From Microbacterium sp. Marseille-Q6648 (GTDB lineage: Bacteria; Actinomycetota; Actinomycetes; Actinomycetales; Microbacteriaceae), in assembly GCF_943181415.1 (NCBI RefSeq), contig NZ_CALPBZ010000003.1, forward strand, positions 413,657 through 477,656: a stretch of DNA of 64,000 nucleotides, written 5' to 3'. The translations under genes and the position numbers were made by a program. Below the pieces are notes generated by a model. The model ran no database searches and was not told the origin of the DNA. It saw only the letters and a list, made by a program, of their open reading frames with translations. Below are positions 39,880 through 57,701 of this stretch, piece after piece (within the stretch, counting starts at the first letter, position 1; every line of letters begins with the position of its first letter).

Positions 39880-40127
39880 CGGAGATGTCAAGTCCTGTCG
39901 GCAGAGGAGGTGAGGGCCGAACGGCACTGACCCTTGCGGGCACCCCCGGTCGGGAGGATGATGTGCATCGCAACACGCATGGGGGAACCTGGACTGGCCC
40001 GCCGGCACACGATGCCATTGCAGCGGAGACGTATCAGCAGGGCATGCGCACACTCTTCATGAGTGACAACCGGGCCACGCTGTTGCGCGCGCCCGCCAGG
40101 TGAGACACACATGGCGGAAGGGGCGAC
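39880..40127. other. Intergenic region between divergent GH51 and giant-protein operon
   Basis: About 250 bases without a gene. It must hold the promoter of the giant two-gene operon. GGAAGGGGCGAC just before ATG 40128 is a strong ribosome site. No clear -10/-35 pair could be assigned by eye. Confidence 0.45.
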
Positions 40128-43100
40128 ATGAGCCTCTGGGATTCCCTCGCGGGTGCCGGCGGCGGTTCCGACCGACTGCGCCCCCTGCTCGAGCAGATGA
40201 CCGACACGGTCACGACCTCCACCGAGACCGACGAGTTCGGCACGTGGGACGTCGCCACCGTCCAGCAGAGCATCGCCGGCCTCCCCGGCCTCGACCTCGC
40301 GACCGGCGCGACCGGAGCAACCGGCGCCGGCACAGGCAGCACCGGCTCGTTCCTGGAACTCCGCGACCCGAACATCACCGTCGCCGTCGGGATCCTGCAA
40401 GCCCCGGCATCCGGGTGGCGCGTCATCGTCACCGCACCGCTGGCCGCCCTCAGGATCCCGGGCCTCGTCGGCGCCAAGCTCGACCCGCAGGGCCAGCTCA
40501 TCCCCGACCCCGCCTTCCCCGACGTCGCCTTCGTCGTACCCCAGCTACGGGTGCGCATCATGCAGCTCGGCACCCAGGCCGTCGGCGTGAAGCTCCTCTC
40601 GTCCGCCACGAGCGCCGGCGGCGGCACCGAGGACATCTACGAGTTCGTCCGCATGGAACCGCCCTACGCCCTCGTCGGCCCGGGCTCGACCGTCGGCTTC
40701 GCCTACCGCACCGCCGTCCTCGACCTCTCGGGCAACGCGGCTCCCAGCGGCGTCCCCGGCGACGCGCGCGTGCAGCCCGACGCCTGGCAGGGCCTGTTCC
40801 TGCCCGAAGTGCGCCTGTTCGTCGCCCCCGATGGGCTCGAGGGCATCGCCGTCAGCGCCGGTGTGCGCAACCTCTGGATCGGCGTCGGCGAGCACCGCGG
40901 CATCACCGGCATCTTCGAAGCCGAAGTCGTCAACCGTGGGCAGGCCCCCGCCATCCACGTGCGCTTCCGCGGCATCGGCGGACGCCACGTCGGCGACCCG
41001 GGCACGGGCACCGCGCTGCTGCCCGAGAACTCCGAGATCATCGTCGACACCGCCGGCGGCATCGCGCCGGTCTCGATCACGATCGCCGCCCCCGGCCATG
41101 CCACGGTCGAAGACGACCGCAGCCCCCTCGTCGTCCCCGCCACCGGCACCCTCACCATCACCGTCACCGCCGACGACGCCGGTCCCTCGTCCGCCACCGT
41201 CCGCACCATCACCGTCGCCCGCGACACGGCCACGCCCGCAGGCAGCGCGCCCGGCGGCTCGAGCACCGAGGTGCGCCCCACCCAGCGCGGCACCCATGTG
41301 ATCGTGAAAGAGAGCGAGACCGCGACCCACGTCACCGTCCGCCTCGAACCGCGCCGCAGCGTCACCTGGACCCATGCCGGCGGCACGCACACCGGCGAGA
41401 CCCTGACCGTCCCGGTGCCCGCGGGCGCACCCGTGCAGGTGAGCGCGACGATCCCGGCGGGCGTCGCCCAGACGGCCGGATGCTGGTTCCACTACGACCG
41501 GCCGACGGTGGCGCAGCTGCCTCCGGCACCCTCCCCCGCGCCGACACCACCCCTCTCGCCCGAGGAGCAGGCCCGCGAGAACGCACGCCTGGCGTGGGCC
41601 GACAGCAACGACGACATGCGCGACCGCGCCGCCACCGGACGCAGCACGAGCGCCACCGGCGGGCAGCGCTTCGAGACGGCCATGGCCGCCCGGCTCACCC
41701 AGATCGGCGCCGGGCAGCTCATCACCGTCGACGGCTACGCCTCGCACGAAGACCCCGGCTCCACCGCGCAGGACACCCACAACCTCGCCCTCTCGCGCCG
41801 CCGCATGGAAGCGGCGATGCGCGCCCTCCGCACGGCGGGGTTCACCAACGTGCAGGCCGGCACCCCGCACGGCTCGGGCTTCGCCGACAGCACCGCCACG
41901 ATCCCCGGGCTCATGGACGGCCTCACCCCCCGCCCGGCGAAGAACGCCGCGTACTGGTGGCTCGCCGTCGCCCGCTGGACCCCGTCGCCCGCGACCGAAG
42001 AGATCACCCGCGCCGACATCGTCCGCATCGTGCTGCCGCCCGCGCCCCGCACCGATCCGCGGCCGCCGCAGGCGCAGCGCCCGAACTGCTTCCGCAAGAT
42101 CGGCGTGCGGGTCGAGATCGTCCGCGACACCCTCGTCCGCGCCGAGATCTACGGTGAATTCGACATCGAGACGGCGGTCGAAGCATCCCTCGCCCGTCGC
42201 GGGGAAAGCGCGCTGCGCAGCGGCGGCCGCAACCCCAGCGACGGCATCTGCCTCTTCCTCGTGCGACTGCGCCTGAGCGAGGACCGTGCGGCGTGGGACG
42301 TCACCGCCGAGTTCCGCGCCGCCGAAGCCGACCGCGACGGACTGGCGCTCATGACCGACGACGAGGCCGACCCGAACGTCCTCAACATCCTCGGCGCCCT
42401 CGCCGTCATGGCGCCGCTCACCGCGAGCGCGACCGAGCTCTCGCCCGCCGCCGGCGCCATCGTCGCCCTCGGCAGCGTCGCCCTCGGCGCCAGCGACGTG
42501 CTGCACACCCACGCCCTCATGCTCCGCGGCGGCGAACTCGTCGTCTCGCGCGGCGTGCTCGGCCCCGACGGCATCACGGCCGCGTCGGACCGGGGCGTGC
42601 AGATCAGCATCCTGCTCGACCTCGAGATCGCCTTCAGCTTCGACCTCGAACTCGTCCGCGTCGATCCGGCGAACCCCATCACCGCGCGCTACAAGGCGAT
42701 CGGCGTCCGGTCGCAATGGGGCACGGATGCCGCACCCGGCGGCGTGGAGTACGTGCCGCTCCCCGTCTTCGACCCGAGCCGCGGATACAGCCTCGACGTT
42801 CCCACCGGCGCGCTCACCGCCACACCGCCGCTCGACGAGATCCTGCGGATCCTCGGCTTCCGCGTGAGCCGCGACAACCCCACCTACCTCGAGGTGGAGG
42901 TCGGACTCGGAGTCGACCTCGGCATCGTCACGGTCGACGCCGTGCGCGTGCGGGTGCGTCTGGACGGGCCGCCGCTGGACCTGCAGCTGACGAAGCTGCG
43001 CGCCAGCATCGAGATCCCCGGCACGCTGCACGGCTCGGGGTCGCTGGAGTTCACCGAGTTCGGCTTCAAGGGCGCCTTCGACCTCACCGTCACGCCGGTA

Positions 43101-46100
43101 AACATCCGCGTCGCGGCGGTGCTCGCCGTCGAACGCGACCCCGCGCGAGGCGTCACCGGTGTCCTCGTCGGCGGCCGCGTCGAGTTCCCCGTGCCGATCC
43201 TGCTCGGCAACTCCGGCCTCGGCATCTACGGCTTCATGGGCGGCATCGGCGTCAACTACCGGCGCGACGAGTCGCCCTACGCCGGCTCGCTCACCCCGGC
43301 GCTGGACTGGGTCATGGACCAGTACCCCCGCACCGGGCAGGTCATGGCCCCCGAGGGCTGGACCCTCGAACCCGGCGCGTTCGCGTTCGCCGCGGGCATC
43401 GCCGTCGGGACCGTCGACGCCGGGTTCACCGTCCACCTCGACGGCATCGTCGTGATCGAGGTCCCCGGCCCGCGGCTGCTCCTCATCATGAAGGCCGACG
43501 TGCTGAGCCTGCCGCCGGTGTTCGGCAGCGACCAGACCGCCACCTTCTTCGCGGTGCTGGACATCGACTTCGGGCGGGGCAGCATCCTGATCGGCATCGT
43601 CGCCGCCTACGAGATCACGAACATCCTCAAGGTGCGCGTGCCGGTGACGGCCAGCTTCGAGACCGCGAACCCCGAGAACTGGTTCGTCGACCTCGGCCGC
43701 TTCCCGCAGGCCGAGCGGGTGAGCGTGAGCGTGCTCGATGTGATCAGCGGCAGCGGCTACCTCATGGTCCACGGCAACGGCATCACCCTCGCCACCGACC
43801 CGGTACTCACGGTGCCGTCGGGCTTCGCCGTCGCCACCGGCTTCCATCTGCAGGCCGTCCTCATGGGCAGCAAGTCCATCGGGCTCTACCTCGAGGTCGC
43901 GGCGGGGTTCGACGCGATCCTGGGGCTCGACCCCTTCTACCTCGGCGGCATCATCTACGTCCGCGGCGAGCTGCGGCTGTGGATCATCAGCATCTCGGCG
44001 AGCGCCACGCTCATCGTGCAGGTCGGCACCCGGCAGAACCCCGACGGCTCGACCACACAGGAACCGTACGTGCACGGCGAGGTCTGCGGCAGCGTCGACT
44101 TCTTCTTCTTCTCGGTCAAGGGCTGCGTGAGCCTCACGATCGGCGAACCGCCCACCCCGACGCCGAAGCCCCGCGCGCTCGTGGCCGGCGTCTCGCTCAT
44201 CTCGCGCACCCCCGCCAAGGTCGAGGGCACCGGCGCCGGGGCGCCGATCGACGGCAAGCTCGGGGATGCCGCCACGGCGGGCACCGCCGAACCCGTACCC
44301 GTCGTGCCGATCGACGCGATCCCGATCATCGCCTTCCACACCGCGCCGCACATGGACGGCGCCGCCGGCGGGGCCGAGGTCGAGATCCTCGGGGCTGCAC
44401 CGGTGAACCTGCCACCGGCAGGACCCAACTTCTGGACGCGCGTCGGCGACCGCTGGTGGCGCTACCGCGTCAACGCGATCGCCCTCACCGGCGGAATCGG
44501 CGCCGGCGACGCCCCCAGCACATGGCTGACGCCGCCGGCGACCGCCGGCCCGCACGCCGGACCCTCGCTCGCCCTTCTGGACTGGCAGCCCACCGCCACC
44601 CCGACCGCGGTGCCGTACGGCGAGAACCTCGTCGAGACCGTCCGCCACCAGTACGGCACGGTGTGCGCGCAGGGCGCCCCGCCGGCGCGCGTGCTGTGGA
44701 CCTTCGACGACTGCCCGAACGGCCCGAGCGACACCGGGTGGCGCCTGACCGGCGTGCTGTGGCCCGACCCGCCCGGAGCCGTCCGCGGCCAGCCCGCCGA
44801 CGCCCGCGTGCACGTGGTCGAACTGTGGCGCATCGATCCGGTGACGGACCTGACACAGGGCACGACCCCCGCGATCGTCATCGGCGATCAGGCCGCGTGC
44901 TTCGATCCGCACGCCGACCCCGTCGACCCGCACGACCCGTTCGCGCGGTGGGATCAGCTGGCCCCCGCGACCTTCAGCGCCGGCGCGCTCGAGGGCGGCG
45001 TCTCGCTCGCCGAGGCCACCGCGTACCTCGACGGCGGCGGCTCGCTGCACGACCTCGCCGCTGCCGCGCAGAGCGCCGGATGGGAGCCCGACCCGATCCC
45101 GCCCAAAGGCACGACGACGTCGAAGGCCCGCCGCGGTCTCTGCCACGGCGCGGTGCTGCGCTCCCCCGTCCGCGACGTCGACCAGCCGGCGCCCGCGGGC
45201 AGCCCCGACGACCAGGAGCGCGTGAAGATCGCGTGGGAGGCCTCGGGCTTCCGCCCGCACGAGCTCGGCGACGCGGTCGCCTTCATCCGCGAGGACGACA
45301 CGTTCACCGCCTTCCACGTCCTGCTGCTCGTGGACGAGCGCGGCCTCAACGGGCGCGTCGTGATCCGGTGCGAGACCGCCGACGGCACCGTCCTGGACGA
45401 GCGCCCGGTCGACGGCGCCGACATGCTGGGCGGCGCGCACCGGCTTCCCGACGAGTGGGTCGATCCGGCGCAGCCCTGGGCCGACGAGGTGTGGCGCGCG
45501 GGCGTCATCGCCGGCCGGCTGCGCCGCGACGACCGCGGAGTGCTGCTGGCGGCGTTCGTGCCCTTCAAGCACGTTCCTGACGGCACCGCCCGCATCGTCA
45601 TCGGCAACCGCCGCGAGGACCCGTTCAAGGACCCCGCCACCGCCTTCTACGTCGTCGCGGCCACGGGATCCTTCGCCAGCGAGACCCTCCGCTACGAGTG
45701 GGACGAGACCAGCATCCACCGCGGCCGCACCGCGCTGTCGAACGCGCTGTCGAAGGGCGCCGACGATGTCGCCCTGCTGCGACCGAACCAGGAGTACGCG
45801 CTGTCGGTCACGTGGGAGGCGACGTCGAAGGAAGGCGATGACCAACCGGATGCCGCCGACGACGGCGACGGCTGGACCACGGTCGCCACCCCGCAGACCT
45901 ACCGGTTCCGCACGCAGGCGACCGCTCCGATCGACCTCGACCCGTGGATCACCAGCACCGCGCCCAGCATGGACGAGACGGGTGTCTTCACCCGCGAGCG
46001 GGTGCGGATCGTCTTCGCCACCCAGCGGGTCACCGGACTGTTCGACGCCTACGGTCGGGAGCTGCGCGTGACCGTGCGCGCGGCATCCGGTCATCACCCC

Positions 46101-46988
46101 GCTCCCCCCGGCGGCGGGGATCCGGCGACGGGGTTCGTGCTGCCGGTCGACCCCGACGGCGTGCTGACGACCCTCGAGTCGGCGGAGGGGGTGCTGAAGC
46201 CGTGGCACACCGCCGTGCTGGAGGTGATCGGCGAAGAGGGGCTGACGTGCGTCAACGTCGACGAGGACGGCAGCGAGGTCTACACGCTCACCGTCGCGTA
46301 CGACTTCGAGCCGCTCACCGACTACCTCGTCGACGTCCACAGTGTCGTCAAGACCACCGGCGCCGACCCGATCCTCGTGCACCGCGTCGGGTTCACCACG
46401 TCGCGGTTCCGCGACGCCGCCGACCTCGCCGCCCTCACCGGCGGCGCGTCCGTCGAGCACCGGGCGGTCGCCGATCTGACGGCGATCCTGGCACTTGCCG
46501 ACCAGCCCACCGGCGCCGCCGTCGACGACGCGCTGCAGCAGGCGGGACTCGGCGTCGAACCGGTGCCCCCGTGGCCGCGCACTCGGGTGCTGTGGAGCAC
46601 CGCCGCCGTGCCGCAGCCGCTCGCGGTGGTCATCGAGTGCAGCGAGCCGATGTGGCGCACCCGCACCGTGCCGACCTGGATCACCGCGCCGCCCGACGCC
46701 CCCGACCCGAGCCACGGGTACTGGGCGGGTCGACCCGGCGAATGGCTGGTGCTCCGGGCGGATGCCGCACCCCCGGCATCCGGGGATCTGCCGCGGGCGA
46801 CGGTGCAGCGCATCATCCGCGGACCCGGCGGCACGAGAGCCATCGCGATCCTCGGACCCGCCGCACGCGGCTGCGAGGCCCGGTTCGCCCTCGTGCACCG
46901 GGACGTCATGCCGACGAGCGTGGCCGAGACGCCGACGACCGCCCTGCGGGTGGATCTGCAGCGGGCGCCATGGGAGGTGGAGGACTGA
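40128..46988 (+). CDS. Giant 2286-residue protein with OmpA-like and DUF6603-like regions
   Basis: No signal peptide or transmembrane helix is evident. Order seen: an N-terminal unknown region with an ATGATGATGAGTGSTGS linker near residue 62; Ig-like beta stretches (residues 300-460). An OmpA-like segment lies at about 520-615 (QLITVDGYASHEDPGSTAQD, NLALSRRRMEAAMRALRTAG, AAYWWLAVARW). A long beta-rich core at about 870-1345 (LEVEVGLGVDLGIVTVDAVR, LGNSGLGIYGFMGGIGVNYR, HGEVCGSVDFFFFSVKGCVS) resembles DUF6603 proteins. The C-terminal part ends in Ig-like segments near 1940-2100 (APSMDETGVFTRERVRIVFA). The strand-after-strand pattern suggests an elongated fibre or barrel-like body. It overlaps the next gene by one base, so they are coupled. 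Function unknown; the DUF6603 resemblance is by eye. Confidence 0.85.
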   Translation: MSLWDSLAGAGGGSDRLRPLLEQMTDTVTTSTETDEFGTWDVATVQQSIAGLPGLDLATGATGATGAGTGSTGSFLELRDPNITVAVGILQAPASGWRVIVTAPLAALRIPGLVGAKLDPQGQLIPDPAFPDVAFVVPQLRVRIMQLGTQAVGVKLLSSATSAGGGTEDIYEFVRMEPPYALVGPGSTVGFAYRTAVLDLSGNAAPSGVPGDARVQPDAWQGLFLPEVRLFVAPDGLEGIAVSAGVRNLWIGVGEHRGITGIFEAEVVNRGQAPAIHVRFRGIGGRHVGDPGTGTALLPENSEIIVDTAGGIAPVSITIAAPGHATVEDDRSPLVVPATGTLTITVTADDAGPSSATVRTITVARDTATPAGSAPGGSSTEVRPTQRGTHVIVKESETATHVTVRLEPRRSVTWTHAGGTHTGETLTVPVPAGAPVQVSATIPAGVAQTAGCWFHYDRPTVAQLPPAPSPAPTPPLSPEEQARENARLAWADSNDDMRDRAATGRSTSATGGQRFETAMAARLTQIGAGQLITVDGYASHEDPGSTAQDTHNLALSRRRMEAAMRALRTAGFTNVQAGTPHGSGFADSTATIPGLMDGLTPRPAKNAAYWWLAVARWTPSPATEEITRADIVRIVLPPAPRTDPRPPQAQRPNCFRKIGVRVEIVRDTLVRAEIYGEFDIETAVEASLARRGESALRSGGRNPSDGICLFLVRLRLSEDRAAWDVTAEFRAAEADRDGLALMTDDEADPNVLNILGALAVMAPLTASATELSPAAGAIVALGSVALGASDVLHTHALMLRGGELVVSRGVLGPDGITAASDRGVQISILLDLEIAFSFDLELVRVDPANPITARYKAIGVRSQWGTDAAPGGVEYVPLPVFDPSRGYSLDVPTGALTATPPLDEILRILGFRVSRDNPTYLEVEVGLGVDLGIVTVDAVRVRVRLDGPPLDLQLTKLRASIEIPGTLHGSGSLEFTEFGFKGAFDLTVTPVNIRVAAVLAVERDPARGVTGVLVGGRVEFPVPILLGNSGLGIYGFMGGIGVNYRRDESPYAGSLTPALDWVMDQYPRTGQVMAPEGWTLEPGAFAFAAGIAVGTVDAGFTVHLDGIVVIEVPGPRLLLIMKADVLSLPPVFGSDQTATFFAVLDIDFGRGSILIGIVAAYEITNILKVRVPVTASFETANPENWFVDLGRFPQAERVSVSVLDVISGSGYLMVHGNGITLATDPVLTVPSGFAVATGFHLQAVLMGSKSIGLYLEVAAGFDAILGLDPFYLGGIIYVRGELRLWIISISASATLIVQVGTRQNPDGSTTQEPYVHGEVCGSVDFFFFSVKGCVSLTIGEPPTPTPKPRALVAGVSLISRTPAKVEGTGAGAPIDGKLGDAATAGTAEPVPVVPIDAIPIIAFHTAPHMDGAAGGAEVEILGAAPVNLPPAGPNFWTRVGDRWWRYRVNAIALTGGIGAGDAPSTWLTPPATAGPHAGPSLALLDWQPTATPTAVPYGENLVETVRHQYGTVCAQGAPPARVLWTFDDCPNGPSDTGWRLTGVLWPDPPGAVRGQPADARVHVVELWRIDPVTDLTQGTTPAIVIGDQAACFDPHADPVDPHDPFARWDQLAPATFSAGALEGGVSLAEATAYLDGGGSLHDLAAAAQSAGWEPDPIPPKGTTTSKARRGLCHGAVLRSPVRDVDQPAPAGSPDDQERVKIAWEASGFRPHELGDAVAFIREDDTFTAFHVLLLVDERGLNGRVVIRCETADGTVLDERPVDGADMLGGAHRLPDEWVDPAQPWADEVWRAGVIAGRLRRDDRGVLLAAFVPFKHVPDGTARIVIGNRREDPFKDPATAFYVVAATGSFASETLRYEWDETSIHRGRTALSNALSKGADDVALLRPNQEYALSVTWEATSKEGDDQPDAADDGDGWTTVATPQTYRFRTQATAPIDLDPWITSTAPSMDETGVFTRERVRIVFATQRVTGLFDAYGRELRVTVRAASGHHPAPPGGGDPATGFVLPVDPDGVLTTLESAEGVLKPWHTAVLEVIGEEGLTCVNVDEDGSEVYTLTVAYDFEPLTDYLVDVHSVVKTTGADPILVHRVGFTTSRFRDAADLAALTGGASVEHRAVADLTAILALADQPTGAAVDDALQQAGLGVEPVPPWPRTRVLWSTAAVPQPLAVVIECSEPMWRTRTVPTWITAPPDAPDPSHGYWAGRPGEWLVLRADAAPPASGDLPRATVQRIIRGPGGTRAIAILGPAARGCEARFALVHRDVMPTSVAETPTTALRVDLQRAPWEVED

Positions 46989-49900
46989 TGGTACGCATCG
47001 CCGATCCTTTCCGGCTGCGGGCCGAGGCGGTCGAGATCGACTGGACGTCGGTGGCTCGGGCGCGCGCGCAGCTGCTGGGCGAGAAGGTGGACTGGGAGCG
47101 GCTGAAGCGCCGTTCCATGGACGTGCGGCTGCTGTGGGCGTGCTCGGCCGAGCTGGGCGTGCCGCACGAGCCGTTCCTGGTGTGGCGGCGGGCGGTCGGG
47201 CGGTCGAAGGCCTCACCGGTCGACGCCGTCGACTCGCCGCATCCCGACGGCGTGCGCCTGGACTGGGGCGGCACCGTCGCGGGGCAGGTCGTGGTGGGCG
47301 CGACACCGCTGGACGCCGGACGCCCCGTGGGCCTGTTCGTCTACCGCGTGGGGCGCGACGGCGTGGTCGGCGCCGTCGGCGCGACCACCGCGCGCTCGAC
47401 CGGCGGGCCGGTGCGCCTGGAGGTGCGCACGAGCGGAGCGACGTGGGCCGTGCTCGTCAACGCCCACTCGCCGCACGTGAGCATCACCACCCTGCACGAC
47501 ATCGTCAACGCCAAGGACTGGGAGCCGTTGGAGTACGTCGGCCTGCCGATCGACCAGCCGTGGGCGGGCGCCCACTACGACCCGCGCGAGCAGGGACCCG
47601 TCGACGCCCCGCGCCCCCCGTTCGACGCCGCCCTGCATCGCCTCACGCGCGGCGCCCCGCCCCTCGGCTGGGACGCCCTCACCCCCGGCGGGCTGCAGGC
47701 GCCGCCGTGGGAGGAGCCCGACCCCGTCGCCCTCGTGGAGGAGCTGCGGAAGTTCGTGCTGCCGGCCGTGGAGCCGCTCTACGACGCTGCGCTGCCGGAG
47801 TTCGCGCAAATGCAGACCGAGGCCTGGACCTCGACGACGTCGCCGCACGTGCCGGGAGCCGCACGCACCTCGTCGCTGCAGACCCGCACCGATCCCCGGC
47901 CGTGGGCGGTGCTCGGCCTCACCGCGCAGGTCGACCCGTTCCTGAACCTCGCCACCGGCTTCGGCGCCGTCTACACCAGCGAGGGCTTCGACGACGAGCA
48001 GGTGCAGATCGGCGGCGACGAACTGCTCGTCACCGCCGCCTACCGCAACACGCTCGGCCCCGGCGAGCAGGTCGTCGAGGGCCAGCCGCTGCCCGCGGGC
48101 GCCGGACCGGCGGAGTACGCGGCCTACGCGCCCCGCGGCGCCTCGCTCGCGCAGATCCCCGCACCCATGCAGCTGACGGCGACGCGCGCGGGCATTGTGG
48201 AACCGCGGGTTCCCGACGCCGCGTTCGGCGAGAGCATCCGCCTGTCGTATCGCCGCACGCTCACCTCGGCGATGCTCGGCACGCCCACCCAGCAGGCCGC
48301 CGCCGTCGACGAGACCGGTTCGGGTGCGGCATCCGCGATCATCGAACGCCGCGACCCGCAGGGGTGGCGCACCGTCGCCGTCTCGCCCGACGCACCGCAG
48401 GGCCAGCCGGGATTCGACCGGGCGTCGCTCATGCACGCCCCCGTCGAGATCCCGATCGGCAGCGGCGGCCGCAACGCCCGCTACGCCCTCGCCGTCGCCG
48501 ACGTGTTCGGGGTGTGGTCGCCGTGGCGGGATGCCGCGTACAGCGGCGGCGAGCCCGCGCCCGAGCTGCCGGCCATCGTCTCGGCGAGCCTGGAGACCCG
48601 CTACGCCGGGTCGACCGCCGCCCCCACGACGCTCGTCGTGGACGTCGCGTGCGAATGGGTGGAGCGACGCCCGTCCCGCATCGACGTGCGCGCGGTGTTC
48701 CACCCCGTGACTCCCGCTCCCGCCAGCCCGTTCGCCCTGTCGCCGACCGGCGCCGTGCCGAGCGGATGCTTCGACCGCGACCTCGCCGTGACGTTCGCCG
48801 GCGACACCCCGACCGGGGTGGGGTGCACGGTCGTCGAGCTCAACCAGGAGGGCACCGCCCCTCTCGGCGGCGCTGCGCGGGACGAGGGAGCCCGCCGCTA
48901 CCGGCTCACCGCCACCGTGCCGACCCTGGACTTCGCCACGGTGCGGCGCTGGGGCGTGGCGCTGTGGGCGTCGCGGGGACTGCGGGTCGGGCCGACGCCG
49001 ACGCCGTTCGGCGCGCGCACCGACGTGCAGGCGGCAAGTCCCGTGCCGGTGCACCCGCTGCCGCCGCCGCAGCCGCCGGGCGTGCCGCTGGCGAGCCTGC
49101 CCGACGCGGGCGGTTCGGCCCACGCCGCCGTGACGTGGAGCCTAGCCGCCGGCGCCGATGCGCGCACCGCCGTGGTGTGGGAGTGCGCCGAGACCGCGAT
49201 GCGGCAGACGGCGGGCCTGCCCGCCCGCGCCGACGCCGCCGACACCCCGTCCGACCGGCTGGTCGCCCTGCGCGCGGCATACGACGGGCTGAGCGCCGAC
49301 CGGCAGCGAGGCGCGTTCCGGCGGATCGCCGAAGTCGTCGCGGCGGCGCGGACCACCGACGTCGCGCTGCCGCGCGGCTCGACCGACATCCACCTGTTCG
49401 CCGTGACCATCGTCTCGTCGACGGCGATCGAGTCGCCCTGGCCGCAGGGCCCCGTGCCGCACGAGCACTTGCGAGCCGTGATCGCGCCACGCCTCGTGCG
49501 ACCCGAGCCCCCCGGCATCCGCTCGGCACCCGTCGCCGCCGGCGGCGGTGTCGAGGTGCGACTGCGGGTGCAGACCTCGAGCGCCGTGCCGGTGCAGCGC
49601 TTCCGGCTGCTGCGCACCCGCAGCGACCGCGCGGCTCTGCGCACCGACACCATGGGACCCGCGTTCGCCGAGCCGCTCGCCACGGCCATGACCGCCTCAG
49701 GCGGGGGACCCGCGGTGGATGCCGTGACGGGGCACCCGCTGTACGAGGCGACGTGGCAGGGCGCCCTGCCCGCCGGCTGGCTGCCGTGGCTCGTCCGTGC
49801 CGTCGCCGTGCCGCAGGCCGTCGACCCGCAGCGCGCCGTGAGGGGACTCGAGTCCGGGCCGTCGGACATCGTGCGGGTGGACGCGGTGCCCTCGGGCCCG

Positions 49901-50869
49901 CCCGTGCTCGACGACCTGGTCGTCGAGGAGGATGCCGCGCACACGGGTCTGGTCGTCCGCACCGGCACGACCGCACCGACCCGGGCCGGCGTCGCCGATC
50001 ACGTGCTGCGGGCGTCGGTGAGCGGGCTCGGTGCGGGGCCCGGCTCGGTCGACGTCGCGGCGGTGACCGTGCCCGAGGTCGTCGAGGCGGACCTGTCGAC
50101 AGTGCCCGTCGGCACCGGCGGGGCCCCGACGTGGCGCCGCGGCGCGCGCGTGACCGGCCGTTCGCCCCTCGCGCTGTGGTTCACCCGGCCCGATCCGGCG
50201 GCGCCGGTGACCGTGGACGTGTCGTTGACCGACCCCCTCGGCCGCACCGCCAGCCGTACGGTTGCGATCCCGGGCTGGACGCCGCCGCCCCCGCCGGCAG
50301 AGGCGACGCTGGAGCTGCTCGGCATCACCCCGCGCGCCCTCTCGGGCGTCGTCGTGGGTGTGCTCACCGACGCTCCCCCACTCGTCGGCTACCGGCTGCG
50401 GATCTCGGCCGTCCGTCGGCGCGGCGGGGTCGGCGGGGTTGGTGGCGGGGCTGGCGGTGGCGGCCGGCGGGGCGGGTTCGGCGGTGGCGGGTTCGGCGGT
50501 GGCGGGTTCGGTGGAGGCGGGTTCGGCGGTGGCGGGCTCGGTGGAGGCGGGTTCGGTGGAGGCGGGTTCGGTGGAGGCGGGTTCGGTGGAGGCGGGCCGT
50601 TCGGGCCGGGCGGCCGCTTCGGCGGACCGATCGGCGGCGGACCACTCGCCCTCCGACCGCTCACGGCCGAGGCGGCGCTACGCGACATCCCCGCGGCTCC
50701 GCGTCCGCCGCTGACCGTCGGGACGGTGACCTTCCGACGACTCAGGAGGATGCCGGGACTCACCGGCTCCGCGATCGAAATCGGCGTCCCCCTCGGCTCG
50801 CCCGTCGTCGTGACCGTGACCCTCATCGCCCCCGACGGCGCCGAGGTGTCGGTGTCCGGCGAGGGCTGA
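46988..50869 (+). CDS. Giant 1293-residue beta-rich partner protein with FGGGG repeats
   Basis: Start ATG 46988 overlaps the stop of the preceding giant gene by one base (TGATG), with GGAGGTGGAGGAC upstream. No signal peptide. The N-terminus is helical (RIADPFRLRAEAVEIDWTSV, ARARAQLLGEKVDWERLKRR), then come many beta-sandwich-like segments (residues 85-1130), for example PVRLEVRTSGATWAVLVNAH and RYALAVADVFGVWSPWRDAA, reminiscent of fibronectin-III folds. A helical insert lies at 745-790. Residues about 1150-1215 are a Gly-rich run of FGGGG units, followed by a final beta segment (AIEIGVPLGSPVVVTVTLIA). No family recognised. Strict coupling with the 2286-residue protein suggests a complex. A 348-codon extension upstream overlaps that gene and is spurious. 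Confidence 0.82.
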   Translation: MVRIADPFRLRAEAVEIDWTSVARARAQLLGEKVDWERLKRRSMDVRLLWACSAELGVPHEPFLVWRRAVGRSKASPVDAVDSPHPDGVRLDWGGTVAGQVVVGATPLDAGRPVGLFVYRVGRDGVVGAVGATTARSTGGPVRLEVRTSGATWAVLVNAHSPHVSITTLHDIVNAKDWEPLEYVGLPIDQPWAGAHYDPREQGPVDAPRPPFDAALHRLTRGAPPLGWDALTPGGLQAPPWEEPDPVALVEELRKFVLPAVEPLYDAALPEFAQMQTEAWTSTTSPHVPGAARTSSLQTRTDPRPWAVLGLTAQVDPFLNLATGFGAVYTSEGFDDEQVQIGGDELLVTAAYRNTLGPGEQVVEGQPLPAGAGPAEYAAYAPRGASLAQIPAPMQLTATRAGIVEPRVPDAAFGESIRLSYRRTLTSAMLGTPTQQAAAVDETGSGAASAIIERRDPQGWRTVAVSPDAPQGQPGFDRASLMHAPVEIPIGSGGRNARYALAVADVFGVWSPWRDAAYSGGEPAPELPAIVSASLETRYAGSTAAPTTLVVDVACEWVERRPSRIDVRAVFHPVTPAPASPFALSPTGAVPSGCFDRDLAVTFAGDTPTGVGCTVVELNQEGTAPLGGAARDEGARRYRLTATVPTLDFATVRRWGVALWASRGLRVGPTPTPFGARTDVQAASPVPVHPLPPPQPPGVPLASLPDAGGSAHAAVTWSLAAGADARTAVVWECAETAMRQTAGLPARADAADTPSDRLVALRAAYDGLSADRQRGAFRRIAEVVAAARTTDVALPRGSTDIHLFAVTIVSSTAIESPWPQGPVPHEHLRAVIAPRLVRPEPPGIRSAPVAAGGGVEVRLRVQTSSAVPVQRFRLLRTRSDRAALRTDTMGPAFAEPLATAMTASGGGPAVDAVTGHPLYEATWQGALPAGWLPWLVRAVAVPQAVDPQRAVRGLESGPSDIVRVDAVPSGPPVLDDLVVEEDAAHTGLVVRTGTTAPTRAGVADHVLRASVSGLGAGPGSVDVAAVTVPEVVEADLSTVPVGTGGAPTWRRGARVTGRSPLALWFTRPDPAAPVTVDVSLTDPLGRTASRTVAIPGWTPPPPPAEATLELLGITPRALSGVVVGVLTDAPPLVGYRLRISAVRRRGGVGGVGGGAGGGGRRGGFGGGGFGGGGFGGGGFGGGGLGGGGFGGGGFGGGGFGGGGPFGPGGRFGGPIGGGPLALRPLTAEAALRDIPAAPRPPLTVGTVTFRRLRRMPGLTGSAIEIGVPLGSPVVVTVTLIAPDGAEVSVSGEG
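50460..50610 (+). repeat. Imperfect 15-base repeats encoding FGGGG units
   Basis: About nine tandem GGCGGGTTCGG(T/C)GG(A/T) units encode Phe/Leu-Gly-Gly-Gly-Gly blocks in the 1293-residue protein. Unit length is five codons, so gain or loss keeps the frame. Confidence 0.85.
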
Positions 50870-52922: not shown

Positions 52923-53270
52923 GCGGCATCCGCTCAGGCGCGGCGCAGTTGGCGGCAACTGCGGTCGACGCCGCGGGAAGCGACAGATACCGCCAACTCG
53001 CGGGCGCGGCATCCGCTCAGCCGAGGCGGAGTTGGCGGCATCAGCGGTCAACGCCGCGGGAAGCGACAGATACCGCCAACCCGCGGGCGCGGCATCCGCT
53101 CAGCCGAGGCGCAGTTGGCGGCATCCGCGGTCAACGCCGCAGGAAGCGACACATACCGCCAACTCGCGGGCGCGGCATCCGCTCAGCCGCGGCGGAGTTG
53201 GCGGCATCCGCGGTCAACGCCGCGGGAAGCGACACATACCGCCAACTCCCGGACGCAGCATCCGGGGCCG
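52923..53270 (+). repeat. Array of 83-bp tandem repeats (four copies)
   Basis: Units start at 52923, 53006, 53089 and 53172 (GCGGCATCCGCTCAG...), exactly 83 bases apart and about 90-95% alike, with a partial fifth copy to about 53270. Each unit contains inverted arms GTTGGCGG and CCGCCAAC, so each RNA or DNA copy can fold. It lies between the CsbD gene and the GH32 gene. Long open frames through it exist only because the unit lacks stops. Confidence 0.92.
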
Positions 53271-53302: not shown

Positions 53303-54874
53303 CTACCGAACGGCGAGCTCCCTCACCGTCAGCCCTCGGAACACCGACGTGCCGTCGTACGAGTACAGCCGGATGCCGTCGTCGCCTTCGAGTGGGAACA
53401 CCCGGTGGGAGTGGACGACCTGGCCGTCGTCGACGAACACCTCCACGCTCGTGCGGTCGACGAGTACCCGCAGGCGCAGTCGCCCCGACGACGGGTCGGC
53501 GGTGAACTGCGACTCGCCTCCGGTGGGGTTGATCGTCGGTCGACGGTTGACGTAGGTGAAGGGGCCGGGCAGGAACATTCCCGCAGCGACATGTCTTCCG
53601 CCGCCGGGTGCTCGGCACACCTCGACGCCGAGGTTCCCCGGCGCGGCGGAGGTGTTCCAGGTGATCTCGCACGACAGCTCGTAAGCGAGGGCGCGCACCT
53701 CCAGGTCGCGCGTGCCCGCGACCGTGACATCGCCGAGGCGATGCGTGCGCGCGGCGTAATCGCGCAGCGCCTCCGTCGGCTGCGAGGCCAGCGCGTATCC
53801 GCTGCCGCTGCGCACCAGCCGCACGTCGCGCACGATCATGTCGTCGCCGTTGTAGCCGTCGGTGGCGAGGGTCGGGGTGTTGTGCGGATAGTCCCAGAAG
53901 TTCGCCCACCCGATCGCGTGGCGCAGCGACTCGTCGACCGCGCCCGAGGCGTCGTGGTGCTCGTAGGTCACCGCACCGTAGAAGTCGAAGCCCCGGTCGA
54001 GCCACTGCGGCTCGTCATGGTCGACGGTGAACGACGCCCCGTCGAACGACCCGGTCCAGTAGGCGTATGTCGCCGGCAGCCCGCGGCCCTTGCCGTTGGC
54101 GCTCGTGCCGAGCACCCAGTGCACCGTGCCGTCGTCGGCGGTCATGCGGAAGAGGTCGGGGCACTCCAGCAGCCCGAGGTCCGTGCGCCGGAACTGGCCC
54201 ACCTCACGCCACGACTTCAGGTCGGCCGAGGCGTAGAAGCCCAGTCGCTGACCTTCCGCGTTGAGCATGAACCATCGCTCGCGCACGTCGTCCCACACGA
54301 CCTTCGGGTCGCGGAAGTCGGGCACACCGGGGTTCGGCAGCACCGGCGCCGACCCGCCCGGACGGAACGACCGCCCGCCGTCGGTCGAGTACCAGAGGTA
54401 CTGCGCCTGCCGACCCTGGGGCGCCTGCGTCACGAGGGCGACCACCGCGCCTTCGCCGTAGCCGGCGGTGCCGCGCTCGTCGACCACGAGGCTTCCCGAC
54501 CAGCAGTCGCCGTTGCCGTTGCTGAACTTCGGGATCGCCACGCCCTGGTCGCGGAACGACACGTGATCGCGCGTCGTCGCTCTACGCCACGACGTGCCCG
54601 CGCCGCCCTCGAGATAGTCGGCGTTGTACAGGTAGTAGTAGTGGTACTCGCCGTCCAGCCAGATCGGCCGCTGCGGGTCGTTCTTCCAGTTGTCGGGAAC
54701 GCTGAAGTGGTACTGCGGGCGCATGCGAGTGCGTCCTTTCGACATGGTGCCGGATGCCGCGGGCCGAAGCTCCGCAGCGGCGGCGCCGCCCGTGGTGAGG
54801 GCGACCGCGCTGCCGAGGGCTGCGACCGAGGCGCCGGTCAGCAGTCCGCGGCGGGACAGGTGGGATTCGGACAT
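53303..54874 (-). CDS. Secreted GH32 fructan hydrolase (levanase/inulinase type)
   Basis: A 523-residue exported enzyme. The Tat signal SRRGLLTGASVAALGSAVAL at residues 8-27 is followed by AAAA cleavage. GH32 catalytic blocks: WKNDPQRP with nucleophile Asp66, FRDPKVVW near 186, and ECPDLF with the acid/base Glu near 236. The C-terminal beta-sandwich (LRLRVLVDRTSVEVFVDDGQ) is present. The NDPQRP variant (instead of NDPNG) is seen in exo-acting levanases and levanbiose-releasing enzymes, so levan is the likely substrate. It is followed by the intracellular GH32 gene and transporter. ATG 54874 has GAAAGGTGAT upstream. Confidence 0.9.
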   Translation of the reverse strand: MSESHLSRRGLLTGASVAALGSAVALTTGGAAAAELRPAASGTMSKGRTRMRPQYHFSVPDNWKNDPQRPIWLDGEYHYYYLYNADYLEGGAGTSWRRATTRDHVSFRDQGVAIPKFSNGNGDCWSGSLVVDERGTAGYGEGAVVALVTQAPQGRQAQYLWYSTDGGRSFRPGGSAPVLPNPGVPDFRDPKVVWDDVRERWFMLNAEGQRLGFYASADLKSWREVGQFRRTDLGLLECPDLFRMTADDGTVHWVLGTSANGKGRGLPATYAYWTGSFDGASFTVDHDEPQWLDRGFDFYGAVTYEHHDASGAVDESLRHAIGWANFWDYPHNTPTLATDGYNGDDMIVRDVRLVRSGSGYALASQPTEALRDYAARTHRLGDVTVAGTRDLEVRALAYELSCEITWNTSAAPGNLGVEVCRAPGGGRHVAAGMFLPGPFTYVNRRPTINPTGGESQFTADPSSGRLRLRVLVDRTSVEVFVDDGQVVHSHRVFPLEGDDGIRLYSYDGTSVFRGLTVRELAVR

Positions 54875-55023
54875 GGGATCACCTTTCGTCGTTGGAAGGA
54901 GGAATCGGAGCGGGAGGGCCGCCGGATGGACCGTGCCGGCGGGTGCGCCGCCGGGCGACCGTGCCGGCGGGTCGACCGTGTGCCGCCGGGAACCGGGCGG
55001 CGGACCGACCGGCGGCAAAGGTG

Positions 55024-56610
55024 CTAGCGGGTGACCGTCGCCATACGCCACGCGCGCAGGGTCGCCGTTGCGCCGCCCGAGACGGCCGCGTGCACACCGA
55101 GCGCATCGGCTCGCGTGGGGTACACCCGCGCCGCCAGCGGGACACCGTCGGCGAAGGCCTCGAGGGTCGAGTGGTCGACGAGAACCCGAAGACGGATGCC
55201 GCGACCCGCGGCCGCCGCGCCCGACGCACCCGCCGGCGGGACCACCCCGGCATCGTCCTCGACCGCGTGGCCTTCGATGCCACCGCCCGTCGAGACACCA
55301 CCCGCCGTCGAGACACCGTCCGCAACGACACCGCCGAGCGGTGCGACGTCGACCGTGCCGTCGAGGCTCGACCGCGACCGGTCGAGGTCGAGCGTCACCT
55401 CGTCGCCGGAGCGCGCGAGGCGGTAGACCGTTCCCTCGGCGCCGTCCGGAGTTGCTCGCACCGTCAGCGCGAGTCCGCCGCCGTCGGGCAGATCGACGTC
55501 GAGCTCGAGGTCGAGCTGATCGCCCCCGACGACGCCCGCGGCGGAGGTCGCATCCCCGTCGAACAGCAGGTCGCGACGCAGGGCGTCCACCTCGGGTGCC
55601 GGCTCCTGGTGCAGCCCGCCGCCGGAACCCGCCCCGGCCGCACGGGCGGTGACGACGCGGGGCAGCGACATGACACCGGACCAGCCCGCGTCGCCGGTGG
55701 CGGCATCCGATCGACCCTCCTGCATCCAGCCGAACATGATGCGCCGGCCGGACTCATCGAGCATCGACTGCGGCGCGTAGAAGAAGCGGCCGCCGAGATC
55801 CAGCCGGTGAAGCGCCTCGGGGATGAAGCGATCGCCCTCGTACCGACCCGACCAGTAGAGCGGATGCAGGGTCTCACCGTCGTTCCACGCCGAGAACACC
55901 AGCACGTCGCCGGCGCCGGGCACGGTGAAGAGGTCGACGCACTCCCACATCGTGCCCGTCCAGTCGGGAGCCCCGGGAGACCCGGTGCGCGCATCGCCGG
56001 TGAGCAGTTCGCCGACATAGGTCCACGAGCGCAGGTCGTCGGATTCGTACAGCAGCGCCGTGCCGCCCACCCCTCGGATGCCGGACCCGACGATCTGCCG
56101 CCAGCGACCGCCTTCTCGCCACACGCAGTGGTCGCGGAACGCCACGACATCGAGCCCCGGAGGCGGCGACGCGATGACGGGGTTCGCGGGATCCTTCGTC
56201 CAGGTCGTCAGGTCGGCACTTCCGGTCGCCAGGCACGGCAGCTCGCGTCCGTCGTGCCGCCCCGAGTACATCAGGTGCGACACGCCCGCGTCGTCGGTGA
56301 CGAGCACGCCCGACCAGCACCCGTCGACGTCGGGACCGGTACTCGGCTCGAGCGCCACGGGCAGGTCGCGCCACGTCACCAGGTCGGTGCTCACGGCGTG
56401 ACCCCACTGGATGCGGTGGTGCACCGGCCGTTCGGGGTTGAACTGGTAGAAGAGGTGGTACTCGCCGCCGCGGTGCGAGAGGCCGTTCGGGTCGTTGAGC
56501 CAGCCGGCCGGGGCGACGAAGTGGAACCCCGGGCGGTGCGGGTCGGCGGCGGCGCGCGCGGCGAGCGCCGCGGTGGTGAGTCCGGCGCGCGAGTCGTCGA
56601 TGAGGGTCAT
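55024..56610 (-). CDS. Intracellular GH32 beta-fructosidase
   Basis: A 528-residue cytoplasmic GH32 enzyme: WLNDPNGLSHRGGEYHLFYQ with nucleophile Asp40, AFRDHCVWREGGRW near 157, WECVDLFTVPGAGD with acid/base Glu near 222. A C-terminal beta-sandwich follows, with a Gly/Val-rich insertion (GVSTAGGVSTGGGIEG). It resembles sucrose/fructo-oligosaccharide hydrolases. Its start overlaps the stop of the ABC ATPase gene by four bases (56607-56610), so it is the last coupled gene of the transporter operon. It probably cleaves imported fructo-oligosaccharides into fructose. Confidence 0.92.
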   Translation of the reverse strand: MTLIDDSRAGLTTAALAARAAADPHRPGFHFVAPAGWLNDPNGLSHRGGEYHLFYQFNPERPVHHRIQWGHAVSTDLVTWRDLPVALEPSTGPDVDGCWSGVLVTDDAGVSHLMYSGRHDGRELPCLATGSADLTTWTKDPANPVIASPPPGLDVVAFRDHCVWREGGRWRQIVGSGIRGVGGTALLYESDDLRSWTYVGELLTGDARTGSPGAPDWTGTMWECVDLFTVPGAGDVLVFSAWNDGETLHPLYWSGRYEGDRFIPEALHRLDLGGRFFYAPQSMLDESGRRIMFGWMQEGRSDAATGDAGWSGVMSLPRVVTARAAGAGSGGGLHQEPAPEVDALRRDLLFDGDATSAAGVVGGDQLDLELDVDLPDGGGLALTVRATPDGAEGTVYRLARSGDEVTLDLDRSRSSLDGTVDVAPLGGVVADGVSTAGGVSTGGGIEGHAVEDDAGVVPPAGASGAAAAGRGIRLRVLVDHSTLEAFADGVPLAARVYPTRADALGVHAAVSGGATATLRAWRMATVTR

Positions 56611-57701
56611 GCGGGGTTCTCCGTGTCGGTGTCGATGTCGGTGCCGGTGCGGGTGCCCTGCTCGGCCTCCACGCTGCGCTGCAGGGCGGTGCCGGGAGCG
56701 TCGGCGGGCGGGGCGTACCGGCCGCAGCGCACCCAGTGCTCGGGCTGGTCGCTGAGACGGTGGAAGACGGCGCGGTCGGTCGCGCACGCCGTGTCGGTCT
56801 GTCCTTCGTAGGCGCACCCGGTCGGATGCAGCACCTCGCGGCGCAGCCGCGCGCGCTCTACCGGGTCGAAGCCCTCGGTGCGCGTGGGGTCGGGCACGGC
56901 CGAGATGAGCAGCCGCGTGTAGGGGTGGGCGGGGTTGGCGAGCAGCTGAAGCGCCTCGCCGCCCTCGACGAACTCGCCGGCGTACATCACGACGATGCGA
57001 TCGGCGAGATATCGCGCCGAGGCGAGGTCGTGGGTGATGTAGAGCATCGAGATGCCCTGCTCCTCGCACAGCGTGCGCATGAGGTTCAGCACCCCGATCC
57101 GCACCGAGACGTCGAGCATCGAGGTGGGCTCGTCGGCGAGCATCAGCCGTGGACCGACCGCGAGCGCCCGCGCGATCGCGATGCGCTGGCGCTGTCCGCC
57201 CGACAGCTCGTGCGGGTAGCGCTCGAGCAGCTCCGCCGGCAGGTCGACCTTGGCCATCAGGCGCCGCTTCGCCTCCTCCATCGCGTCGCGACCGCGGCCG
57301 ACGACCCCGTGGACCGTGAGCGGTCGCTCGAGGAAGTGCCCGACCCGGTGCGCGGGATTGAGGGAGCCGAAGGGGTCCTGGAAGATCATCTGCACCGCAG
57401 AGCGGTACCGCCGGCTGGCTCCGCGCGGCTCGGCACGGAGCATGTCGCGACCTTCGAAGGCGAACGTGCCGCCGGTCGGCTGCTCGAGGCGGGCCAGGCA
57501 CCGCGCGAGGGTCGACTTGCCGCTGCCGGACTCGCCGACGAGCGCGACGATCTCGCCGTGGGCGATGTCGAGGTCGACCCCGCCGAGGGCGCGCACGCGT
57601 CCGCGCGAGAACAGCCCGCCGGTCGCGAACGTCTTCGTGAGTCCGCGCACGCTCAGCACGGTGGTGCCGGTGCGCGCGTCGGAGGATTCGGTCAGGGTCA
57701 T
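56607..57701 (-). CDS. ABC transporter ATP-binding protein (DppF/OppF type)
   Basis: A 364-residue ATPase of the oligopeptide/nickel importer class. Walker [10 protein letters not shown] near 47, [15 protein letters not shown] signature, Walker [10 protein letters not shown], and the C-terminal oligopeptide-type extension with [11 protein letters not shown]. It pairs with the ATPase at 57698 to drive one importer. Overlaps of four bases on both sides tie it to the operon. The long Cys-containing tail, about residues 300-364, is usual for the family. Confidence 0.93.

Follow-up and report, generated by a model that had tools for sequence, protein, structure and literature searches.

An overlapping gene pair for two giant proteins in Microbacterium sp. 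Marseille-Q6648 belongs to a patchily spread two-gene cassette

The 64,000-nucleotide stretch of Microbacterium sp. Marseille-Q6648 analysed here (the window; contig NZ_CALPBZ010000003.1, positions 413,657 to 477,656) contains two adjacent genes for giant proteins, referred to below as A and B (Table 1). A reading made earlier from the letters alone (the original prediction) had described two very long genes whose stop and start overlap by one base, and the coordinates and the TGATG junction were verified. Because the G+C content of the locus is 70-78% and a 2253-residue open frame runs through the same DNA on the opposite strand (40545-47306), the length of the two reading frames is no proof that they are genes. 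That they are genes is indicated by homology in the same frames and by a surplus of differences at codon position 3 relative to two congeneric copies. The differences at positions 1/2/3 were 0.123/0.093/0.356 and 0.129/0.106/0.328 for A, and 0.219/0.165/0.442 and 0.212/0.171/0.436 for B. Promoter and terminator scans gave nothing exceeding chance.

Table 1. Features of the A-B locus, in positions of the window (nt, nucleotides).
Feature	Position	Strand	Remarks
Possible ribosome-binding site GGAAGGGG	40116..40123	+	4 nt upstream of the A ATG; recognized by eye
Gene A	40128..46988	+	2286 residues, ATG start; N-terminal region, OmpA-like domain, DUF6603-related core, long C-terminal region
OmpA-like domain of A	41670..41960	+	About residues 515-611; conserved N552, L555 and R559
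Core of A	42615..44162	+	About residues 830-1345, DUF6603-related; closes with a conserved GEVCGEVDFFFFSVxGCV-type signature
TGATG	46986..46990	+	A stop and B start have one base (its A) in common
Gene B	46988..50869	+	1293 residues, ATG start; without family match
FGGGG low-complexity loop	50441..50596	+	7 units that begin at residue 1164, close to the B C-terminus

The pairing of A and B as a unit is firm for the loci examined. Fifty-eight loci were compiled, comprising 54 found with two short peptide patterns in one genome per species, three plasmid loci and the window; two of them belong to Rhizobium tropici. They were found through A, the pattern search reaching only members that carry the patterns, and their number is thus a lower bound. 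An iterated B profile placed B directly after A in 56 of the 58, and in the other two (L014 and L047) the contig ends inside A. At the 52 junctions that could be scored, the genes overlap by 1 nt in 28 and by 4 nt in 12 and are spaced by 0-30 nt in the remaining 12; loci L035 and L057 (A frame too short) and L055 and L056 (no B start near the A end) were left out of this scoring. In L035, L055 and L056, A or B is spread over several frames, through either decay or sequencing error; these loci were kept without correction. Trees of A and B from 41 loci have 29 of 38 splits in common, with a path-length correlation of 0.97, as against a mean of 0.26 common splits and a maximum of 5 in 200 label shuffles. 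Among 29 congeneric genomes, 27 of them with completeness of at least 90%, three carry A and exactly these also carry B, the window's own genome being one of them. These 29 genomes were the sole place where B was looked for without A, since the 58 loci came through A. Far from usually standing apart, the two genes belong together, as the original prediction had it.

The spread of this unit is patchy, which is likewise firm for the loci examined. The loci come from six phyla, Actinomycetota, Pseudomonadota, Acidobacteriota, Bacteroidota, Gemmatimonadota and Myxococcota; for each of the latter two the evidence is a single metagenome bin. A was absent from 58 other genomes sampled from the order (59 with the window's own, the sole carrier). 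When plasmids were searched by tblastn, A had relatives in Rhizobium tropici, Paracoccus aminophilus and Azospirillum oryzae, and B had relatives in Rhizobium. The three congeneric copies show DNA identities of 77.6-78.8%, the copy L062 being identical in sequence to L004 from Microbacterium sp. CFH 31415. Homology to the window starts 14 nt ahead of A in L062 and 100 nt ahead of it in L063 and extends up to the variable loop or the end of B, and no homologous flanks adjoining the cassette were found among the three copies. The other matches to the window, a 36-base one at 12.8 kb and, for L004, an 80-base one at 57.1-57.2 kb, both lie distant from the cassette. No family recurs beyond 4 in 100 among the genes flanking the cassettes, within the 25 of 158 families listed, and no transposase or integrase was identified with the cassette. 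An empty site was sought in the 29 congeners through two flanking genes, and among the matches listed no pair lay within 100 kb on one contig. In the A tree, starred branches join Streptomyces and Frankia with Mesorhizobium, and Demequina gelatinilytica with Paracoccus, Roseococcus and Sphingomonas; the tree was built rapidly from 46 rows and has long branches (that of L003 most of all), and its deep order is uncertain.

Searched as a single sequence, A gave no confident match in Pfam (best row E 0.21), PHROGs or NCBIfam, and no match in the PDB. The OmpA-like segment and the resemblance to DUF6603 that had been seen by eye both emerged from the relatives of A and not from the window protein. 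Pfam OmpA was matched at E ≤0.1 by 13 of 46 A-family members (best 0.0007), window A not among them, and the A-family profile matched OmpA domains in the PDB, the best being OprF (5u1h, E 2.5e-6). The likeness to this domain (PF00691) covers about residues 515-611 by profile and includes the conserved N, L and R. In OmpA domains, an Asp and an Arg bind peptidoglycan. In an alignment of 51 rows, Arg559 is kept in 98%, while position 539 is Ser in 65% and Asp in 24%; Ser539 of window A lies at what we take to be the site of the usual OmpA Asp. Unlike OmpA proteins, A has the domain embedded in 2286 residues without a signal-peptide-like start, and in most rows Ser replaces the ligand Asp.

DUF6603 (PF20248) was found at E ≤0.1 in 12 of 46 A-family members (best 4e-15), whereas window A gave no row at E ≤1. 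Ten A relatives scanned singly yielded one match, which was under the curated cut-off, and a scan of the whole genome with the DUF6603 profile gave 0 matches, though its control gave none either. The core of A is a distant relative of DUF6603, a family name that carries no function, and this kinship is supported through the relatives of A. No paper on DUF6603 by name was found in the open-licence literature. The repeated beta build that had been proposed is strong in the core (residues 830-1345, z 5.7), weak in residues 1-480 (z 2.5) and absent from residues 1345-2286 (z -0.7); it is also weak in B 1-1150 (z 2.0), which lends little to the chain of beta segments proposed for that protein. Comparison of the C- and N-terminal regions of A with B by hhalign revealed no relation (probability ≤0.1%). 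Hydropathy suggested no signal peptide in either protein, in line with the original prediction: within the first 40 residues, the highest mean over 15 residues is 0.15 for A and 0.31 for B.

B as a single sequence likewise gave no confident match in Pfam (best row E 0.027), PHROGs or NCBIfam, and just three rows in the PDB (E 0.27-0.7); the B-family profile found nothing convincing among PDB chains (best E 0.052). Among 42 B members, Pfam Big_6 was matched in two (best E 0.013), along with two single weak rows. Profile searches thus placed neither A nor B in a well-understood family. The C-terminal end of B is probably made of two tandem units of about 130 residues each, which hhalign relates to each other (74%, E 2.8e-5). 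The FGGGG repeats pointed out near this end are real, but they are specific to the window copy, and the B family does without them. In the nearest congener the same loop holds DPFGR-type repeats, in the second it has neither repeat type, and a search of 52 B homologues found no run of at least 12 G, F or R.

In 25 of the 58 loci, all from Gram-negative phyla, B is followed by a third gene, C, of about 1050 residues. Its start could be placed in 23 loci, in 22 of them 1-44 nt past B and in one overlapping B by 10 nt; C appears split in L031 and L041, by decay or sequencing error. The C-terminal part of C is related to an intact phospholipase D (PLD) of Mycetohabitans (hhalign 96.7%, E 3.4e-10), and a C profile built from 17 of the 25 copies matched no PDB chain at E ≤1. 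Other genes follow B elsewhere. Hemopexin proteins are encoded downstream of B in one Streptomyces (287 nt away) and one Frankia (123 nt away), and by eye the Frankia protein shows an HExxH stretch. A Beta-lactamase2 protein lies 38 nt past B in one Mesorhizobium, with no such gene in the other Mesorhizobium. Azospirillum encodes a 786-residue third protein that has no relatives among the loci; a guess by eye that it is a peptidoglycan enzyme received no support from searches. The first same-strand gene after B in seven actinobacterial loci has a seemingly unrelated Pfam family in five, one of these of unknown function, and no match in two. Upstream of the Sulfidibacter cassette (L036:983-4852) lies a 1290-residue protein that appears beta-patterned by eye.

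A close parallel among known genes is on a Mycetohabitans plasmid, where the same three kinds of protein adjoin: a B-like protein of 1322 residues, a PLD of 463 and a DUF6603 protein of 2496, in that order. The A-family profile aligns with this DUF6603 protein over 513 columns (hhalign 99.9%, E 1.5e-32). The protein's DUF6603 name comes from its database record alone, and no DUF6603 row appeared at E 0.1 when it and a Streptomyces relative were scanned against Pfam. The plasmid differs from the cassettes in its gene order, in a PLD that has both Pfam PLD matches, and in a B-like similarity that is limited to 199 columns. A PLD-related neighbour thus recurs in two gene orders.

The original prediction had also offered a fibre, shell or injection-like body, while noting that no phage-tail or secretion gene is nearby and that known contractile systems do not match. 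The second part held: no such family was matched among the 10 proteins scanned at 28.6-57.5 kb, the part of the window covered, and Phage_sheath_1, the one sheath family searched, was absent from three carrier genomes, while its control was positive in 3 of the 14 named genomes. The first part did not gain support. Neither A nor B matched PHROGs, the core of A matched none of 50,697 phage records, which were queried with A residues 1341-1541 (outside the core) and, separately, with the core, and viral contigs scanned with a single pattern yielded no relative. A contractile injection body is disfavoured by the sheath result, and a phage origin by the lack of a PHROG, phage-record (core) or viral-contig relative. 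By exclusion, then, the pair met no named system and no family of known function in the libraries and open-licence literature consulted, and a description beyond these may exist.

A and B probably work together in a so far unstudied system. Tentatively, at a probability of roughly 0.4, A-B may be a horizontally spread two-protein scaffold that has a third partner in some lineages; both the scaffold and a physical complex of A and B, which would be the natural expectation for such a pair, are suggested from sequence. In this scheme, the patchily spread cassette would be self-contained and would encode two subunits of one system, made together by coupled translation. A large scaffold would form from A and B, either within the cytoplasm or once they have been released by some unidentified route. 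The gene right after B would, in many lineages, supply a third protein that joins the scaffold. This partner would mostly be C, which may bind membrane or lipid and does not appear to cut; a few lineages would employ other partners, including an intact PLD, and the window's actinobacterial version would consist of the scaffold pair only. The cassette probably does something useful, as an 11-kb unit encoding two giant proteins imposes a cost on the host, its differences fall mainly at third positions, and the unit is found in six phyla. The libraries and literature searched gave no function for A or B; their fixed pairing makes a joint function testable, with close relatives that do not carry the cassette as controls.

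This scaffold is the best of several readings, and it leans on C, which is regularly placed but devoid of catalytic residues and often missing. Several observations weigh against it. The catalytic His and Lys of the HxK(x)4D motif are missing in all 24 readable copies of C (the contig of the 25th, L055, ends ahead of the motif), which also disfavours C as an enzyme or toxin. C is absent from all 23 actinobacterial loci (in L014 and L024 the contigs end too early to tell) and from 10 of the 35 others (contigs of L047, L051 and L057 end early), and a search of the window's genome, made without a positive control, found none. A third partner missing in so many lineages is not essential; the loci that lack C are clustered on the tree, which suggests few events. 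The evidence for the hemopexin and Beta-lactamase2 genes as third partners is thin. In addition, the A starts of diderm relatives are sometimes more hydrophobic, with means over 15 residues as high as 1.89. A mean hydropathy of 1.6 over 19 residues is frequently used as a membrane-helix threshold, and such windows reaching 1.6 number three in A and two in B. Given these starts and windows, export or membrane segments are possible.

A bolder form of the scaffold, a new mobile macromolecular system in which the giant pair serves single- and double-membrane bacteria and an exchangeable third partner acts on or binds membranes or the envelope, is rather doubtful, its odds lowered by the lack of catalytic residues in every readable copy of C.

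Handling of lipids or other hydrophobic ligands, with the amphipathic beta core of A as a groove or tube, B extending or capping it and the PLD-related protein of diderms binding phospholipid, is unlikely. It would account for the strong alternating hydrophobicity of the A core and for the recurring PLD-related partner, whose loss of catalytic residues fits binding over cutting. However, no lipid-transfer family was matched in Pfam, and the PDB chains retrieved were OmpA-type domains and weak rows only.

Still less probable is a cassette for defence against phages or other threats. Its patchy presence in congeners and unshared flanks are of the kind expected, and the Mycetohabitans PLD weakly resembles DrmC models (best E 3e-6), perhaps as any PLD would. 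But A, B and C gave no PADLOC row at E 0.01, which disfavours a known defence system, and the scanned neighbours are mainly metabolic (among the 25 of 158 families listed).

We likewise give little credence to a surface adhesin, or a structure of the cell wall, that would leave the cell by some unidentified path. The size of the proteins, the beta-patterned core, the OmpA-like domain, the variable low-complexity loop and the hydrophobic starts of some diderm A relatives would suit it. Window A and B have no signal-peptide-like start by hydropathy, though, the OmpA Asp site is mostly Ser although the Arg is kept, and Big_6 in two B members is the sole adhesin-family match. An injection-like or phage-tail-derived body is very improbable, since the size and coupling of the proteins and the variable third gene fit it but the sheath and phage searches found nothing.

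The surroundings of the pair in the window are those of sugar use, with an arabinofuranosidase and a LacI regulator immediately upstream. Downstream, two adjacent GH32 (fructan-degrading) proteins are encoded on the minus strand (53303-57501), and between the VanZ and GH32 genes lies a tandem array of an 83-base unit (52923-53264; 4.1 copies, 93% match). The G+C content is 57-69% in the first 24 kb of the window (1-24000) and 66-78% elsewhere, which may mark an acquired stretch.

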